DNA of 35,031 nt from Candidatus Bipolaricaulota bacterium (GTDB lineage Bacteria; Bipolaricaulota; Bipolaricaulia; RBG-16-55-9). The notes below the pieces were generated by a model. It was not told the DNA's origin and made no database searches. It was given only the letters and a program-made list of their open reading frames with translations. This document shows positions 5,825 through 11,846 of this stretch, one piece after another; within the stretch, counting starts at the first letter, position 1; the number at the start of each line of letters is the position of its first letter. The stretch covers positions 1 through 35,031 of the forward strand of contig JALSGO010000165.1 of the NCBI GenBank assembly GCA_026982655.1. The letters are read 5' to 3'. The position numbers were made by a program, and so were the translations under genes.

Positions 5825-6853
5825 ATGCCGTTCGGAGACGGAGCGCAGCTTCGGGACGTCTATCGGCGCATGAAACGGGAAGGCTACGCCTTCATCGCGA
5901 GCAACGTCGCCGAGCCCAACGTGCTCTTGGGGCTCTTGGAGGGCGCGGAGGCCTCCCGAGCCGACCTGCTGGTGCAAATCAGCTACGGGGCCATGGGGTT
6001 TGCGGGAGCCGGGGACGCCTGGGCCGGACTTCGGGCCCTCTCGTCGTACCTTCGGGCGGTGAGCGAGTGCTACTCCATCGGGATCTTCCTCAACCTCGAC
6101 CACCAGCAGGAAAAACACCTTGACCTCGTCGAGAGGGCGATCGCTGCCCGGATTCCCAGCTCGATCATGATCGACGCCTCCCACGAGCCCTTCGAGCGCA
6201 ACGTCGCGATCACCCGCAAGGTCGTCGAGATGGCCCACCCTCGGGGCATTCTGGTGGAGGGGGAGCTGGGGATCATCAAGGGGGCCGAGGAGGACGTCGT
6301 CTCCGACGAGGCCTTCTACACCGACCCCGACGACGCGGTGGAGTTCGTCGAGCGTACGGGGGTAGATCTGTTAGCGATCTCCATCGGGACGGAGCACGGC
6401 GTAAGCAAAGGGAGAACGCTCACGCTGCGCCTGGACCTCGCCCGGCGGGTGAACGAGGCCTTGCGGGAAGCCGGGTACGACATCCCCTTGGTGATCCACG
6501 GCTCCTCGGGCCTCTCCACGGAGCAGCTCCGCGAGCTGATCCGCTGCGGGGTCTGCAAGATCAACCGCGACACCTTCTATCAGTATTTGTACACCTGCAC
6601 GGCCTACGACTTCTATCGTCAGCGACACGAGTCGATCGTGCCCCCCGAGGGCGTCCGCTTTGACCCGGAGACGTTCGAGTCCTCTAACGATTGGACCCCC
6701 GACAAGAAGGCCTTCGACCCGCGCGCCGTGGGCAAGGAGATCCAAAGAGCCGTCAAGGAAGCGCTTATGCGCTTCAACGAGGAGATCGGCAGCGCGGGCC
6801 GGAGCCTCTTCGCTTCGGGCTCGGGCTCGGGCTCGGGTTCGAGCCCGAGTTAA
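5825..6853 (+). CDS. Class II fructose-bisphosphate aldolase family protein
   Basis: 342 residues. Class II aldolase features in order: catalytic Asp92 with zinc ligand His93 (NLDHQQ), IDASHEPFERN (117-126), Glu145 (VEGELG), zinc ligand His191 (GTEHG), zinc ligand His225 (VIHGSSGL), and the phosphate-binding CGVCKINRDT. The family catalyses reversible cleavage of fructose- or tagatose-1,6-bisphosphate to dihydroxyacetone phosphate and an aldehyde; fructose-bisphosphate is likeliest beside a hexokinase-type gene. The ATG has AAAGGAG upstream. The C-terminus is odd: the last 12 residues are a Ser-Gly tail encoded by hexamer repeats that also form a hairpin. The stop shares the palindrome TTAA with the convergent small gene downstream. 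Confidence 0.88.
   Translation: MPFGDGAQLRDVYRRMKREGYAFIASNVAEPNVLLGLLEGAEASRADLLVQISYGAMGFAGAGDAWAGLRALSSYLRAVSECYSIGIFLNLDHQQEKHLDLVERAIAARIPSSIMIDASHEPFERNVAITRKVVEMAHPRGILVEGELGIIKGAEEDVVSDEAFYTDPDDAVEFVERTGVDLLAISIGTEHGVSKGRTLTLRLDLARRVNEALREAGYDIPLVIHGSSGLSTEQLRELIRCGVCKINRDTFYQYLYTCTAYDFYRQRHESIVPPEGVRFDPETFESSNDWTPDKKAFDPRAVGKEIQRAVKEALMRFNEEIGSAGRSLFASGSGSGSGSSPS
6815..6849 (+). repeat. Hexamer repeat TCGGGC and hairpin at the aldolase 3' end
   Basis: TCGGGC occurs three times, then TCGGGT (6815-6838), in frame and encoding Ser-Gly pairs. Overlapping it, the 10-base arm CTCGGGCTCG (6826-6835) pairs perfectly with CGAGCCCGAG (6840-6849) across a 4-base loop, ending two bases before the stop codon. 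There is no following T-run, so it is not a standard terminator. It could be a stability hairpin for the operon mRNA. Confidence 0.8.
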
Positions 6854-7038
6854 TCCTCCGCCTCCTTGACGGCCTCCTTGAGGTCGTGGAGGGTGCGCCC
6901 CAGCCGCCCGACGACGTCGTCGAACGTCTCGTAGTCCATCTCCTCTAAAAGCCCTTCGAGCTCCTCGTGGTAGTCCATGAGGTCGTCGATGAGGGGGTTG
7001 ATCTTCTCGATCAGCTCCTTCTTCGTGACGTATGCCAT
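6850..7038 (-). CDS. Small acidic helical protein of unknown function
   Basis: 62 residues from the ATG at 7038, preceded by AGGAGGGATG; the longer open frame upstream (to 7116) has no ribosome-binding site and is rejected. The protein is rich in Glu and Asp, has no hydrophobic or cysteine-rich segment, and reads as two helices (residues 6-33 and 37-61) that could form a coiled-coil hairpin. I do not recognise the family. A near-consensus promoter lies upstream, so it is probably a separately and possibly strongly expressed gene. It converges with the aldolase gene, sharing a TTAA stop palindrome. Confidence 0.65.
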   Translation of the reverse strand: MAYVTKKELIEKINPLIDDLMDYHEELEGLLEEMDYETFDDVVGRLGRTLHDLKEAVKEAED

Positions 7039-7118
7039 TCGAACATCCCTCCTCCTGCAAGTTTTACGGTAGCGAGGAAAGGGGTGCCTTGCTCTTTGAA
7101 GAAGGGTATGTCTCAAGG

Positions 7119-7147
7119 ATTGTAGAAGAACACCCCCAAAAGGTCAA
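7119..7147 (-). promoter_or_regulatory. Predicted strong sigma-70 promoter of the 62-residue gene
   Basis: TTGACC (7147-7142), a 17-base spacer and TACAAT (7124-7119) on the minus strand. Predicted start near 7112 gives a leader of about 74 nt with AGGAGG just before the ATG. Confidence 0.65.
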
Positions 7148-7193: not shown

Positions 7194-8525
7194 TTAAAAC
7201 CCTAGCTTCACGTTCAGGGAAAACGCCGTTGCGGTTGTGGTACGAGTGGGAGCGTTGGGCGATCGTCTTGCCTTCCACGCGCCCTTGAGGGTGAGCGTAA
7301 GGCCTGGGAGGGGCTCCGTGTCTACAACAAACTCAGCCTTTAGCTGACGAACGTCGCGAGCGGGATCGTCCGGGTAGTGGGTCTTGCGTATCCCTCCTGC
7401 GAGCGAGACGCTCCAGGGATCGCGGGTCCAGGTGACCGCGGCATCCCAGCGGATAAGACGCTTATCTCTCTCGGGATCTTGCGGGAAGTTCGTGATCTCA
7501 TGCTCCAAGGACGCGCTCAGCACCCAGGGCTTCCACTCCCCTGCGAGCGCGAGGAGCGCCTCCCATACTCCTCGGTCGCGGTCGGGATCGTGCGGGTACC
7601 GGATCGCACGTTGGGTCAAGCGCACCTCGAGTTGTCCCCACGGCGCGGGGAGCTTGAGATCCGCCTGCAGATGCCGGAGGCGTCGCGTGAGCACGGGGGT
7701 CTCAGGGCGGTCCACGTCCGAGAGCTTTCCCCACAGCGTAAGCTCTCCCCAGCTGCCCGGAAGCGTTGCCTTGAGGGATCCTTCCCACTCCCGTCGGTTC
7801 CGAAAGGAATCTCGGGGGAAATCCTTCTGCTCATGGGCGAATGCGATTTCCACCGCCCCGGCGCTGCTTCTAGCTCCCCATTGGACTCCCAGCTTCCTCC
7901 GGATCTCGTCCCGCTCCGGATCGTTGAGGAACCACCGGACCCTGTGCTCGTAGGACACCTCTACGAGCACAGGCTCGTGGGCCGTCCTAGACCCCTCGGC
8001 TCCGGCGGCCAGAGAGAGGGCAACTCTGCGCTCGTCCTTCGAGGGAGCGTGCGGAAACGCCCGAGTCTCTTGGGTCACCGCGCCCTCCAACCGCACGTCG
8101 CCGTAGGCGAGTTCACCCTGGAGGGCGTAGGCCTGCAGGCGAACGTCCTTCCGGGGAGCATAGGGGTAGGTCACATCTCGTCCTTCAACAAGCGCTCTCC
8201 AGGAGAACGGGTCCAAGCGTAGGGACAAGCTGTACTCTTGCATGCGGTACCGACGACTGAGGTACGTCCTCTGCGTGTGGGTCTTCTGCCCCTGTTCCAG
8301 CGTTGCTCCCAGCTCGATCCCCCAGAGGGACAGATCAAACGCCGTCTTGGTGAGGACGTCGTAGAACTCATCGTTTGGACCTCGCGTATGCTCGTTTTGG
8401 AACGACTGCTCCACTGCGATTTGCCCGGAAGCCTTCGGTGTTCCTCCCCCAAGGTCCGGTACGCTCAGGGAGACGAAGCCTATAAGAAGCGCGAGGCCCC
8501 GACTGCGGATTCCCGCGCTCCCCAT
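7194..8525 (-). CDS. Outer-membrane beta-barrel made of 37-residue hairpin repeats
   Basis: 443 residues. Residues 1-34 look like a signal peptide (LALLIGFVSLSV core, Gly/Ala-rich end). The rest alternates polar and hydrophobic/aromatic residues and ends in NVKLGF; a terminal Phe is the usual signal for BAM-assisted outer-membrane insertion. From residue 46 on, a loop motif [Y/F]-P-x-D-P-x-R-D recurs every 37 residues: starts at 120, 157, 199, 236, 273, 310, 347, 384 and 422, with degenerate copies at 46 and 83. Each unit reads as loop, strand, tight turn (often PW), strand, predicting about 22 strands. I know no named family for it. Codon use is less G+C-rich at third positions than in neighbours. 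It could be a porin or adhesin; no function is claimed. A promoter lies only 8 bases upstream of the ATG. Confidence 0.75.
   Translation of the reverse strand: MGSAGIRSRGLALLIGFVSLSVPDLGGGTPKASGQIAVEQSFQNEHTRGPNDEFYDVLTKTAFDLSLWGIELGATLEQGQKTHTQRTYLSRRYRMQEYSLSLRLDPFSWRALVEGRDVTYPYAPRKDVRLQAYALQGELAYGDVRLEGAVTQETRAFPHAPSKDERRVALSLAAGAEGSRTAHEPVLVEVSYEHRVRWFLNDPERDEIRRKLGVQWGARSSAGAVEIAFAHEQKDFPRDSFRNRREWEGSLKATLPGSWGELTLWGKLSDVDRPETPVLTRRLRHLQADLKLPAPWGQLEVRLTQRAIRYPHDPDRDRGVWEALLALAGEWKPWVLSASLEHEITNFPQDPERDKRLIRWDAAVTWTRDPWSVSLAGGIRKTHYPDDPARDVRQLKAEFVVDTEPLPGLTLTLKGAWKARRSPNAPTRTTTATAFSLNVKLGF
7197..8390 (-). repeat. Protein-level tandem repeat, about 11 units of 37 residues
   Basis: Spacing between successive loop motifs is 37, 42, 37, 37, 37, 37, 37 and 38 residues, counted from residue 120. 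The best copies are YPHDPDRD (310), FPQDPERD (347) and YPDDPARD (384). The DNA copies have diverged, so the repeat is seen in the protein rather than as a nucleotide tandem array. The 42-residue unit (157-198) carries a five-residue insertion. Confidence 0.75.
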
Positions 8526-8533
8526 AGCGCCGC

Positions 8534-8563
8534 TTTATAGCTCTTTTATGAGATCGGGGTCAA
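8534..8563 (-). promoter_or_regulatory. Predicted promoter of the barrel gene, close to the start codon
   Basis: TTGACC (8563-8558), an 18-base spacer and TATAAA (8539-8534) on the minus strand. Only 8 bases separate the -10 box from the ATG at 8525 and there is no Shine-Dalgarno sequence between, so the transcript should be leaderless or nearly so. Confidence 0.5.
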
Positions 8564-8592: not shown

Positions 8593-10074
8593 TTAGCCCT
8601 CAAAGGGGTAGGTCAACACCGGCTGGCGGGCGGCCTTCACGTCGTCCAAGCGCCCCACGATCGTCGTGTGCGGGGCCTCCTTCAGCACCTCCGGGCTCTC
8701 CTTGGCCTCTTCGGCGATCTTGGAGAAGGCGTCCGCCAGCGCGTCCAGCTCCTCTTTCATCACGGTCTCCGTGGGCTCGATCATCAGCGCCTCCGGAACG
8801 ATCAAGGGGAAGTACACGGTGGGCGGGTGGAAGCCGTAGTCGATGAGCCTCTTGGCGATGTCCACCGTGCGGACCTCGGGGTGCAGCCCCTTGCCCGAGA
8901 GCACGAACTCGTGCTTGCACAAACGATCATAGGGTAGTCGGTAGACCCCTTTGAGCTTCTCCTTGAGGTAGTTCGCGTTCAGCACGGCGGCCTCGCTCAC
9001 GGCTCGTAAGCCCTCATCGCCCAACATCCGGATGTACGTGTACGCCCGGACCATCACCCCGAAGTTCCCGTAGAACGAGTGGACCCGCCCCAGCGACTTG
9101 GGGAGGTCATAGTCGAGAGAAAAGCTGCCATCGTCGCGCCGTCGCACGATGGGCACGGGCAGATAAGGCGCGAGCGCCTCGCAGACGGCCACCGGCCCCG
9201 AACCGGGCCCCCCGCCGCCGTGAGGGGTGGAGAAGGTCTTGTGCAGGTTGAAGTGCACGATGTCCACCCCGAAGTCCCCGGGACGCGCGCGGCCCAAGAT
9301 GGAGTTGAGGTTCGCCCCGTCAAAGTAGCAGAAGCCCCCGACCTCGTGGACGAGCTTTGTAATCTGTAAAATGTCCTCCTCGAAGATGCCCAGCGTGTTG
9401 GGGACGGTGAGCATGATCCCGGCCACGGATCCATCCAGGTGCTCCTTGAGCTTTCGGAGGTCGACCATCCCCCGCTCGTCGGAGGGGATCTCCACGACCT
9501 CGAAGCCCGCGATGTGCGCCGAGGCCGGGTTCGTCCCGTGGGCCGAGTCGGGCAACAAGATCTTGCGGCGCTTTGGAAGCTCGCCGTGATCTTCAAAGTA
9601 GCGCTTGATGAGGAGCATCCCCACAAATTCCCCGTGGGCTCCCGCCGCGGGCTGCAGGGTGATCGCGGACAGGCCCGCGATCTTCTTGAGGAGCTCCCCC
9701 AGCTCGTACATCAGCCGCAAGATGCCCTGGGAGAGTTCCTCTCCCTGGAGGGGGTGCGCATGGGCGAACTGGGGCAGCCGGGCCACTTCCTCGTTGACCC
9801 GAGGGTTGTACTTCATGGTGCACGACCCGAGGGGATAGACGCCCGTATCCACCCCGTAGTTGACGAGCGAGAGGTCCGTGTAGTGGCGCACCAGCTCGAT
9901 CTGGCTCACTTCCGGAAGCCGGGGGGCCTCCTCCTCGGAGCGGAGCAGCTCCTCGGGGATCAGCTCCTCCAGGGGCCGGGTGTCGACGTCGGGCTCCGGC
10001 AGGCGCAGTCCCCGCCGCCCCGGCCTTCCCAAATCGAAAAGGGTCCGCCCCGGCTCGAGTTCTCCCCACGTCAT
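8593..10074 (-). CDS. gcvPB: Glycine dehydrogenase (decarboxylating) subunit 2
   Basis: 493 residues, the normal length for the C-terminal half of the split P-protein. The pyridoxal-phosphate lysine is Lys279 in FNLHKTFSTPHGGGGPGSGP. The upstream DSAHGTNPASAHIAGF (176-191) and FDGANLNSILG (251-261) are P-protein signatures. With subunit 1 it decarboxylates glycine and passes the aminomethyl group to lipoyl-GcvH. The ATG overlaps the stop of gcvPA by 4 bases. gcvT and lipoamide dehydrogenase are absent from the window, so the system is completed elsewhere. The gene is last in gcvH-gcvPA-gcvPB. Confidence 0.96.
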   Translation of the reverse strand: MTWGELEPGRTLFDLGRPGRRGLRLPEPDVDTRPLEELIPEELLRSEEEAPRLPEVSQIELVRHYTDLSLVNYGVDTGVYPLGSCTMKYNPRVNEEVARLPQFAHAHPLQGEELSQGILRLMYELGELLKKIAGLSAITLQPAAGAHGEFVGMLLIKRYFEDHGELPKRRKILLPDSAHGTNPASAHIAGFEVVEIPSDERGMVDLRKLKEHLDGSVAGIMLTVPNTLGIFEEDILQITKLVHEVGGFCYFDGANLNSILGRARPGDFGVDIVHFNLHKTFSTPHGGGGPGSGPVAVCEALAPYLPVPIVRRRDDGSFSLDYDLPKSLGRVHSFYGNFGVMVRAYTYIRMLGDEGLRAVSEAAVLNANYLKEKLKGVYRLPYDRLCKHEFVLSGKGLHPEVRTVDIAKRLIDYGFHPPTVYFPLIVPEALMIEPTETVMKEELDALADAFSKIAEEAKESPEVLKEAPHTTIVGRLDDVKAARQPVLTYPFEG

Positions 10075-11444
10075 CGGGATCGTGTGACCTCCTTGAGCGC
10101 CTCGACAAACCCATCCAGCTCGGCGCGCGTGCGCCTCTCGGTGACGGCGATCAAAAGAGCGTTCGGGTGTCCGAAGGGCTCCAGATCGACGCCGCCCAGG
10201 AAGCCCCGCTCCCGCAGTCGGGGCAGAATCTCCCGGGGAGGGACGGGCGTCTCCACGGCAAACTCGTTAAAGAACGGCCCCTTCCATCGGCGGGGCCAGC
10301 CCAGCTCCTCTTCGATCCTGCGCGCCAGATAGTGCGCCTTCTGCGCGATCAACGCCGCAAGCTCCCTCAGCCCGCGCTTTCCCAAGAGCCCCAGGAAGAG
10401 GGTGGCCGCAAAGGCACAGAGCGCTTGGTTGGTGCAGATGTTCGAGGTGGCCTTGGCCCGACGGATGTGCTGCTCCCGGGCCTGGAGGGTCATGATGTAG
10501 CCCACCCGCCCTTGGGCGTCCGTGGTCCGCCCGGAGATCCTCCCGGGCATCCGGCGCATGTGCTCTTTTCGACAAGCGAAGAGGCCCAACAGCGGTCCCC
10601 CAAAGGCGGAAGGGTTCCCCAACACCTGCCCTTCGCCCACGACGATGTCGGCCCCGAACGCCCCCGGCGGCTTCACGATCCCCAAGGCGATGGGATGGGC
10701 GCTCACACACAAGAGCCCCTTCCCCAACGCGTCTTTGAGGTTGCGGAGGTCTTCGAGGACCCCGAAGAAGTTCGGGGTCTGCATCAGGAGACCGCCCGTC
10801 TCCTCGTCCACGTTCTCTGCGACAAATCCCTTGTCGAGCTGCCCTTGATCGTCGTAGGGAACGCTCGCCAGCTCCAAGTCTGCGGCCCAGGCGTACGTCC
10901 GGATCACCCGGCGGTAGTGGGGGTGGACGCTCTCGGCCACGAGGAACTTCCGGCGGCCCGTGAGGTTGTGGGCCATGAGCATCGCCTCGGCGAGGGCCGA
11001 GCCGCCGTCGTACATCGAGGCGTTCGCGACGTCCATGCCCGTGAGCTCGCAGACCATCGTCTGGTACTCGAACATCCAGGTGAGCGTCCCCTGTGAGGCC
11101 TCGGCCTGATAGGGCGTATAGCTCGTGAAGAACTCCGAGCGGGTCATAAAATACGAGACCACGCTGGGGATGTCGTGGTCGTAGACGCCCGCACCCAAGA
11201 ACGAGACGAACCTGCGGGGATCGAGGTTCTCCTCGGCGATCTGGGTGAGGAGCCGTTTGGCCTCCAGCTCGCTGAGGGGATCAAGGCCTAGGGGCTCATA
11301 ACGATCGAGGATCTCTCGAGGGATGTCTTGAAAGAGATCGTCTACGGACTGCAGGCCGACGGCCCGGAGCATCTCCTCGACGTCTTGGGGGGTGTGAGGG
11401 ATGAACTCGCTCCGGCGGAGGGATCCTCCCTCACGGGTGCCCAT
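10071..11444 (-). CDS. gcvPA: Glycine dehydrogenase (decarboxylating) subunit 1
   Basis: 457 residues, the normal length for the N-terminal half of the split P-protein. It begins with the family's FIPHTPQDVEEMLRAVG segment and contains FLGAGVYDHDIPSVVSYFMTRSEF (line of residues near 85-108), then SMYDGGSALAEA. It pairs with subunit 2 to form the glycine decarboxylase; it carries no PLP lysine itself. The split arrangement is typical of Firmicutes, Thermotogae, Thermus and several deep lineages, whereas many Proteobacteria carry one fused gene. It starts 6 bases after the gcvH stop and overlaps gcvPB, so all three are one operon. Confidence 0.95.
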   Translation of the reverse strand: MGTREGGSLRRSEFIPHTPQDVEEMLRAVGLQSVDDLFQDIPREILDRYEPLGLDPLSELEAKRLLTQIAEENLDPRRFVSFLGAGVYDHDIPSVVSYFMTRSEFFTSYTPYQAEASQGTLTWMFEYQTMVCELTGMDVANASMYDGGSALAEAMLMAHNLTGRRKFLVAESVHPHYRRVIRTYAWAADLELASVPYDDQGQLDKGFVAENVDEETGGLLMQTPNFFGVLEDLRNLKDALGKGLLCVSAHPIALGIVKPPGAFGADIVVGEGQVLGNPSAFGGPLLGLFACRKEHMRRMPGRISGRTTDAQGRVGYIMTLQAREQHIRRAKATSNICTNQALCAFAATLFLGLLGKRGLRELAALIAQKAHYLARRIEEELGWPRRWKGPFFNEFAVETPVPPREILPRLRERGFLGGVDLEPFGHPNALLIAVTERRTRAELDGFVEALKEVTRSR

Positions 11445-11450
11445 GGCCGA

Positions 11451-11846
11451 TCAGCCCTCACCCTCCGCTTCGCCGATGAGTCTTTCGTACTCCTCGGCGC
11501 TGAGGAGCCTCTCGAGTTCGGAGGGATCGCCCATCTCGAGGAGGGCCATCCAGCCCTTCCCGTACGGGTCTTGGTTCACGTACTCGGGATGGGATTCCAG
11601 CTCCGGGTTGACCTCCACGACTTTCCCGCTTACGGGCGCGTAGACGTCGGAGGCGGCCTTGACAGATTCTACCGTGATGATCGCCTCCCCTTGTTTTACC
11701 TCGCGGCCCACCTCGGGAAGCTCCACGTAGACGATGTCCCCCAACTCCTTTTGGGCGAAGTCGGTGATGCCCATCCGTACCCTGCCGTCTTCGACCTTGG
11801 CCCATTCGTGTTCCTTCGTGTACTTGAGCTCCTTAGGATAGGACAT
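11451..11846 (-). CDS. gcvH: Glycine cleavage system H protein
   Basis: 131 residues. The lipoyl attachment site is Lys63 in ITVESVKAASDVYAPVSG, with the usual N-terminal KYTKEHEWAKV and the GWMALLEM segment. The lipoyl arm shuttles the aminomethyl intermediate between the P, T and L proteins. GGAGGGAG precedes the ATG at 11846. It is the first gene of the operon and diverges from the EamA gene across 56 bases, too short to hold a glycine riboswitch as well as the promoters. Confidence 0.96.
   Translation of the reverse strand: MSYPKELKYTKEHEWAKVEDGRVRMGITDFAQKELGDIVYVELPEVGREVKQGEAIITVESVKAASDVYAPVSGKVVEVNPELESHPEYVNQDPYGKGWMALLEMGDPSELERLLSAEEYERLIGEAEGEG

Follow-up and report, generated by a model that had tools for sequence, protein, structure and literature searches.

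The window and the predicted barrel gene

The window analysed here is a 35,031-nucleotide stretch of a Candidatus Bipolaricaulota contig (JALSGO010000165.1, assembly GCA_026982655.1). On its reverse strand it carries an open reading frame of 443 amino acids, with an ATG start and a C-terminus reading KLGF, which we describe as the putative gene for an outer-membrane beta-barrel assembled from repeated hairpins. The gene, its parts and its upstream neighbourhood are as follows.

8593..11846, minus strand: gcvPB, gcvPA and gcvH, directly upstream of the barrel gene (gcvPB named from sequence)
8534..8563, minus strand: probable promoter of its own, with TTGACC and TATAAA 18 nt apart and the latter 8 nt ahead of the ATG (read by eye)
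7194..8525, minus strand: complete barrel gene, encoding 443 aa with 22 strands predicted (open reading frame and AlphaFold2)
8424..8525, minus strand: signal peptide-like N-terminus, residues 1-34, MGSAGIRSRGLALLIGFVSLSVPDLGG...KAS (read by eye; low pLDDT in the model)
8388..8432, minus strand: first strand, residues 32-46 (AlphaFold2)
8280..8390, minus strand: hairpin unit 1, residues 46-82, motif degenerate (spacing and model)
8169..8279, minus strand: hairpin unit 2, residues 83-119, motif degenerate, with loop L2 (spacing and model)
8058..8168, minus strand: hairpin unit 3, residues 120-156, YPYAPRKD (spacing and unit HMM)
7932..8057, minus strand: hairpin unit 4, residues 157-198, FPHAPSKD (spacing, model and unit HMM)
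7821..7931, minus strand: hairpin unit 5, residues 199-235, FLNDPERD, with loop L5, the FIMAH insert site in long forms
7710..7820, minus strand: hairpin unit 6, residues 236-272, FPRDSFRN (spacing and unit HMM)
7599..7709, minus strand: hairpin unit 7, residues 273-309, RPETPVLT (unit HMM)
7488..7598, minus strand: hairpin unit 8, residues 310-346, YPHDPDRD (spacing and unit HMM)
7377..7487, minus strand: hairpin unit 9, residues 347-383, FPQDPERD (spacing and unit HMM)
7263..7376, minus strand: hairpin unit 10, residues 384-421, YPDDPARD (spacing and unit HMM)
7197..7262, minus strand: last loop and closing strand, residues 422-443 (sequence, model and unit HMM)

The promoter-like site is omitted by a consensus promoter scan because the last base of its second hexamer is not T; a similar pattern (TTGACT-18-TATAAC) precedes the homologous gene in genome G001, suggesting that the barrel transcript may be leaderless in both G001 and the window genome (G000). 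Membership of an operon with the glycine-cleavage genes was considered as a clue to function and rejected, because the promoter-like site at the start codon is conserved in two species and the neighbouring genes vary between genomes. Just downstream of the barrel gene lies an 88-aa open reading frame (6850-7116, minus strand) with an acidic, helix-like second part and no Pfam match, preceded by a promoter-like TTGACC-17-TACAAT of its own at 7147..7119.

A 37-residue repeat spans the protein

From residue 46 onwards the loop motif recurs at successive spacings of 37, 37, 37, 42, 37, 37, 37, 37, 37 and 38 residues. The strict pattern [YFW][PL]x[DA]Px[RK]D has six matches (residues 120, 157, 199, 310, 347 and 384), against 0.0006 expected from composition. 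In the autocorrelation of the mature protein the top lag is 37 (z = 9.7), followed by 74 (4.8) and 111 (4.0); across 2,000 shuffles, the maximum z at any lag had a 99.9th percentile of 4.6. Aligned against itself with HHalign, the same test as used by Franklin et al., the family profile matches at a shift of one hairpin over about 340 columns (E = 2.6e-29, probability 99.8), with further shifts at 6e-21 and 2e-11. An iterated unit HMM, with the consensus YPNDPSKDRRTRELELALEFELGGGDLTLSLEQ, finds nine significant units and two weak N-terminal ones in the window protein, and gave one match in 210 shuffled sequences. The original prediction had placed loop motifs at residues 120, 157, 199, 236, 273, 310, 347, 384 and 422, with degenerate copies at 46 and 83; all eleven positions are correct, and its 37-residue period is borne out by the autocorrelation, the self-alignment and the unit HMM alike. 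Its count of 10-11 repeats agrees with the nine significant and two weak units at eleven loop positions.

Adjacent units, compared in register, are only about 21% identical in the window protein, pointing to an old amplification whose pattern has been strongly kept. A DNA tandem-repeat search of the window gene found no remnant of a 111-bp unit. The units are regular with small exceptions: unit 4 is five residues longer than the rest, the extra falling mostly within its turn, and the RP start of unit 7 is retained in all four short forms of the family.

The family is absent from Pfam and NCBIfam, neither of which gave a significant match to the window protein, so the earlier impression of an unrecognised family holds. 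A profile search of PDB sequences returned only antibody chains, at E near 1.

Predicted structure

AlphaFold2, given 17 sequences drawn from the window genome and its relatives, models the window protein with a mean pLDDT of 89.5 and a pTM of 0.76, and places 22 strands across residues 32-441, exactly two per unit with one loop, where about 22 had been anticipated. Confidence in the first strand is only moderate. Odd-numbered connections are six- to eight-residue loops carrying the YPxDPxRD motif, and even-numbered ones are two-residue turns (one of five). Despite their degenerate sequences, the motif copies at residues 46 and 83 form regular hairpins in the model. All of the DPxRD loops lie on one side of this all-beta protein, in keeping with the single rim that was foreseen, and the closing strand ends, as had been read from the sequence, in Phe, as in outer-membrane beta-signals. 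A hydrophobic or aromatic last residue is found throughout the family members.

Hydrophobic alternation along the strands scores 2.53, against 1.43 +/- 0.23 in shuffled sequences, none of 5,000 scoring as high. Outward strand faces carry L/A/V/W/I/F and inward faces E/R/S/K/T; in the unit profile, strongly hydrophobic residues occupy positions 16, 18, 27, 29 and 31, next to polar neighbours. At unit positions 10 and 12 the profile has basic residues; these are assigned outward, adjoining the loops, and might interact with lipid head groups. Mean identity is 0.47 in loops and 0.33 at outward strand positions, falling to 0.22, the lowest in the strands, at inward positions.

In the majority of motif loops, P-x-R/K lies in a helical turn of three residues, so the preceding D is a likely N-cap with P at N1, and the model suggests that DPxRD serves as a structural helix-capping turn. 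The original prediction had proposed that the Asp/Arg loops form a salt-bridge or cation ring; this is unsupported, as the helical-turn loops, with their near-balanced charge (+13/-17), look structural.

Foldseek against the PDB returned outer-membrane barrel proteins throughout the 50 matches listed for each model (window protein and long form). The lists are led by TonB-dependent receptors such as BtuB, ZnuD and PirA, which share the 22 antiparallel strands and give the best E-values (1.9e-07). None of the solved barrels superposes well, the TM-score reaching at most 0.51 and the rmsd lying above 10 A. A closed barrel, in which strand 1 would pair with strand 22, is presumed. Taking n = 22 and a shear of about 24, we calculate from standard barrel geometry that the backbone radius would be near 20 A; the lumen, if open, would therefore be wide. 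The model of the short form has no loop long enough to fold into the lumen and no plug domain, the barrel strands starting right after the signal; no significant Pfam or NCBIfam match is seen.

Short and long forms in Bipolaricaulota

Sequence relatives were found in 20 of 100 genomes examined from the same class, these 100 making up the whole of the phylum in the set. The count of 20 takes in a distant G008 barrel and, in G013, a match limited to the helical FIMAH insert. Named records of relatives are Candidatus Bipolaricaulota/Acetothermia metagenome-assembled genomes (contig scan, six-sequence alignment). A contig search with the window protein alone, and a scan of viral contigs with the short-form profile, returned no relatives.

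The short form, about 440 aa in length, is found in the window genome, G001, G003 (partial) and G006. Families f2 and f6 have the long form, of about 710 aa, whose representatives include L013, L014, L044-L054 and the following relative.

L012:6267-8399, minus strand: long-form relative of about 710 aa; loops 2 and 5 carry helical inserts

Modelled separately, a long-form homologue also has 22 strands, and the only helical inserts predicted in it fall in loop 2 (between strands 3 and 4) and loop 5 (between strands 9 and 10). The insert in loop L2 comprises about 170 residues; that in loop 5, absent from the window short form, matches the FIMAH domain (PF22888; E = 3.9e-18 in G005 and 9.6e-6 in G059). 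The order gcvH-gcvPA-gcvPB-barrel is identical at the window short form and the G005 long form, and the two forms are therefore same-locus orthologues. A tree built from the C-terminal half places all four short forms on one side of a branch (SH-aLRT 94), and one change between short and long suffices. Although the tree is unrooted, loss of the inserts appears the likelier direction because long forms occur in two orders.

The distant relative in G008 (L073:3575-5212, plus strand; 546 aa) is barrel-like, with FPNDPGK and FPLEPDK loops, an acidic insert resembling a calcium loop (DDDGDGLIDEDG) and no Pfam match. Several barrel homologues have right-handed beta-helix (NosD-like) secreted proteins as neighbours (L009:1295-2545, plus; L014:5844-6599, minus; L080:6273-7064, plus), an assignment confirmed by Pfam for L080 only; their presence could be chance or could reflect a partner. 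In G091, an SLH and coiled-coil open reading frame followed by an unassigned beta-rich one (L078:1727-3698, plus strand) lies directly upstream of a long-form barrel, making this a possible envelope-tethering locus.

Age of the repeats and a probable present-day duplication

Compared across species, units that occupy equivalent positions have a mean score of 44.6, and units at different positions score 22-25. The eleven-hairpin plan therefore predates the split of these families, and recent homogenisation of the units is ruled out by the same comparison.

That homologues should differ in unit number had also been anticipated, and one such case was found. In genome G099 (isolate RS_12_53, JAGLXM010000078.1; L046:1860-4007, minus strand), a 111-bp, 37-codon unit is present in two tandem copies, identical over 118 bp, in frame and running loop to loop. 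The sister genome G098 has a single copy, with 86-91% nucleotide identity around it. The G099 product is thus predicted from its sequence to have twelve hairpins and to form a 24-strand barrel. An assembly artefact was considered and seems the less likely source: the match is exact over 118 bp, and assemblers tend to collapse such repeats rather than create them.

Hairpin-amplified outer-membrane barrels are already known as a kind, and the prototypical examples of Franklin et al. 2018 (PMC6340704) show repeats at a one-hairpin shift in the same HHalign test. In that survey, however, repeats were more characteristic of smaller barrels, fixed partial duplications were rare, and the origin of 22-stranded barrels was opaque, with an overall lack of internal duplication (PMC6340704). 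The window family differs from those barrels in combining 22 strands and clear internal repeats with a short form that has no plug and with a live, exact hairpin duplication. Sensitive methods do find weak repeats in the 22-strand receptor 5NEC_A, at 18.9% identity (PMC13055192), so the contrast with known 22-strand barrels is one of degree. We consider the chances evenly balanced that this is a new family, a plug-less 22-strand barrel made by repeated single-hairpin duplication whose hairpin number is still changing (22 to 24 strands in G099).

Proposed function and alternatives

Beyond the repeat and the strand plan, which are computed results, we infer the barrel closure, membrane location, orientation and pore function of the protein. 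We propose that ancient tandem amplification of a 37-residue beta-hairpin gave rise to an exported 22-strand outer-membrane beta-barrel. Each unit would run as down-strand, two-residue turn, up-strand and eight-residue loop, and the D-P-x-R/K of each loop would form a capped three-residue helical turn. Known outer-membrane proteins have both termini in the periplasm, and on that basis the DPxRD loops would face outwards; the helical domains that the long forms carry in loops 2 and 5, both outer, would be caps or surface domains. The protein's job may be that of a wide, low-specificity diffusion channel across an outer membrane that has BamA and no detectable LptD. To this explanation as a whole, an exported, hairpin-amplified 22-strand barrel acting most likely as a wide channel, we give a probability of roughly 0.7.

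The window genome encodes both Omp85/BamA and an SLH protein. An LptD profile matched neither the window protein nor anything in that genome, a weak negative since the control misses several diderms. Together these genes may be taken as evidence towards a diderm envelope without LptD-type lipopolysaccharide export. Hao et al. found no lipopolysaccharide genes in an Acetothermia bacterium and left undecided whether it was mono- or diderm (PMC6092417).

Among possible roles, an open, wide, low-specificity channel ranks first, although we hold it tentatively and at a little under even odds. Inward residues are the least conserved in the strands, so a low-specificity lumen or a structural role fits better than a binding site. 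Against an open channel, the unplugged lumen of 22 strands would be very wide, and a plug may be needed beyond 18 strands, as Franklin et al. suggested (PMC6340704).

That same oddity, 22 strands with no plug of their own (PMC6340704), is consistent with a real barrel serving as a sleeve whose lumen is filled by a separate partner, for example a lipoprotein on the LptD/E model or a cytochrome on the MtrA/B model. The best query-normalised TM-score (0.51) falls on another wide barrel, the 26-stranded MtrB (6r2q_B), which serves the Mtr complex as a sleeve around a decahaem cytochrome. The window barrel, in contrast, has no profile match to MtrB/PioB in Pfam or NCBIfam, and the whole window lacks a CXXCH motif. 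Comparison of neighbourhoods found no conserved partner gene adjoining the homologues, and poor conservation of the inward-facing residues also argues against a fixed occupant; we regard this second-ranked possibility as unlikely, if less so than those below.

Ranked third, and less probable again, is a mainly structural or surface protein with an incidental pore: an outer-membrane scaffold, a display platform for helical domains, or a phage receptor. Conservation concentrated in the outer loops, the FIMAH and other helical domains of the long forms and the SLH protein near the G091 homologue are consistent with such a role, but short forms with no displayed domain still keep 22 strands. The SlpA/SDBC barrel of Deinococcus (8ae1, 7zgx, 8agd; TM 0.46-0.50) is likewise a large barrel from an atypical diderm lineage; the window protein, however, is a barrel alone, without an SLH domain, and has 443 aa against 950-1,100.

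It is improbable that the protein is an open repetitive beta-sheet or superhelix, periplasmic or on the surface. Low TM-scores against closed barrels and the indirect case for closure would allow it; the membrane-type hydrophobic alternation of the strands, the hydrophobic or aromatic last residues, the outer-membrane barrels throughout the fold matches listed and an even strand number, 22, constant in short and long forms, all speak for a membrane barrel. A TonB-dependent receptor minus its plug is the least probable reading of all: strand number is equal, such receptors dominate the Foldseek matches listed and the NCBIfam TonB-B12 model gives a weak, non-significant match (E = 0.19), but no plug or barrel model in Pfam or NCBIfam matches significantly, no plug is seen, the outer loops are far shorter, the TM-score is about 0.4 and the sequence repeat is clear in the window barrel.

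Implications

Hairpin duplication is the presumed route by which outer-membrane barrels have grown, although its trace is hidden in the large ones. The window family retains that trace in a 22-strand barrel, together with one exact present-day duplication beside a sister genome without one. If our reading is true, it would reveal a plug-free route to large barrels, of which the survey by Franklin et al. found no trace, and G099 and G098, as close relatives, would offer a natural comparison in which to test barrel widening. The family also bears on whether Bipolaricaulota are diderm, a question left unsettled by the first closed-genome paper (PMC6092417).
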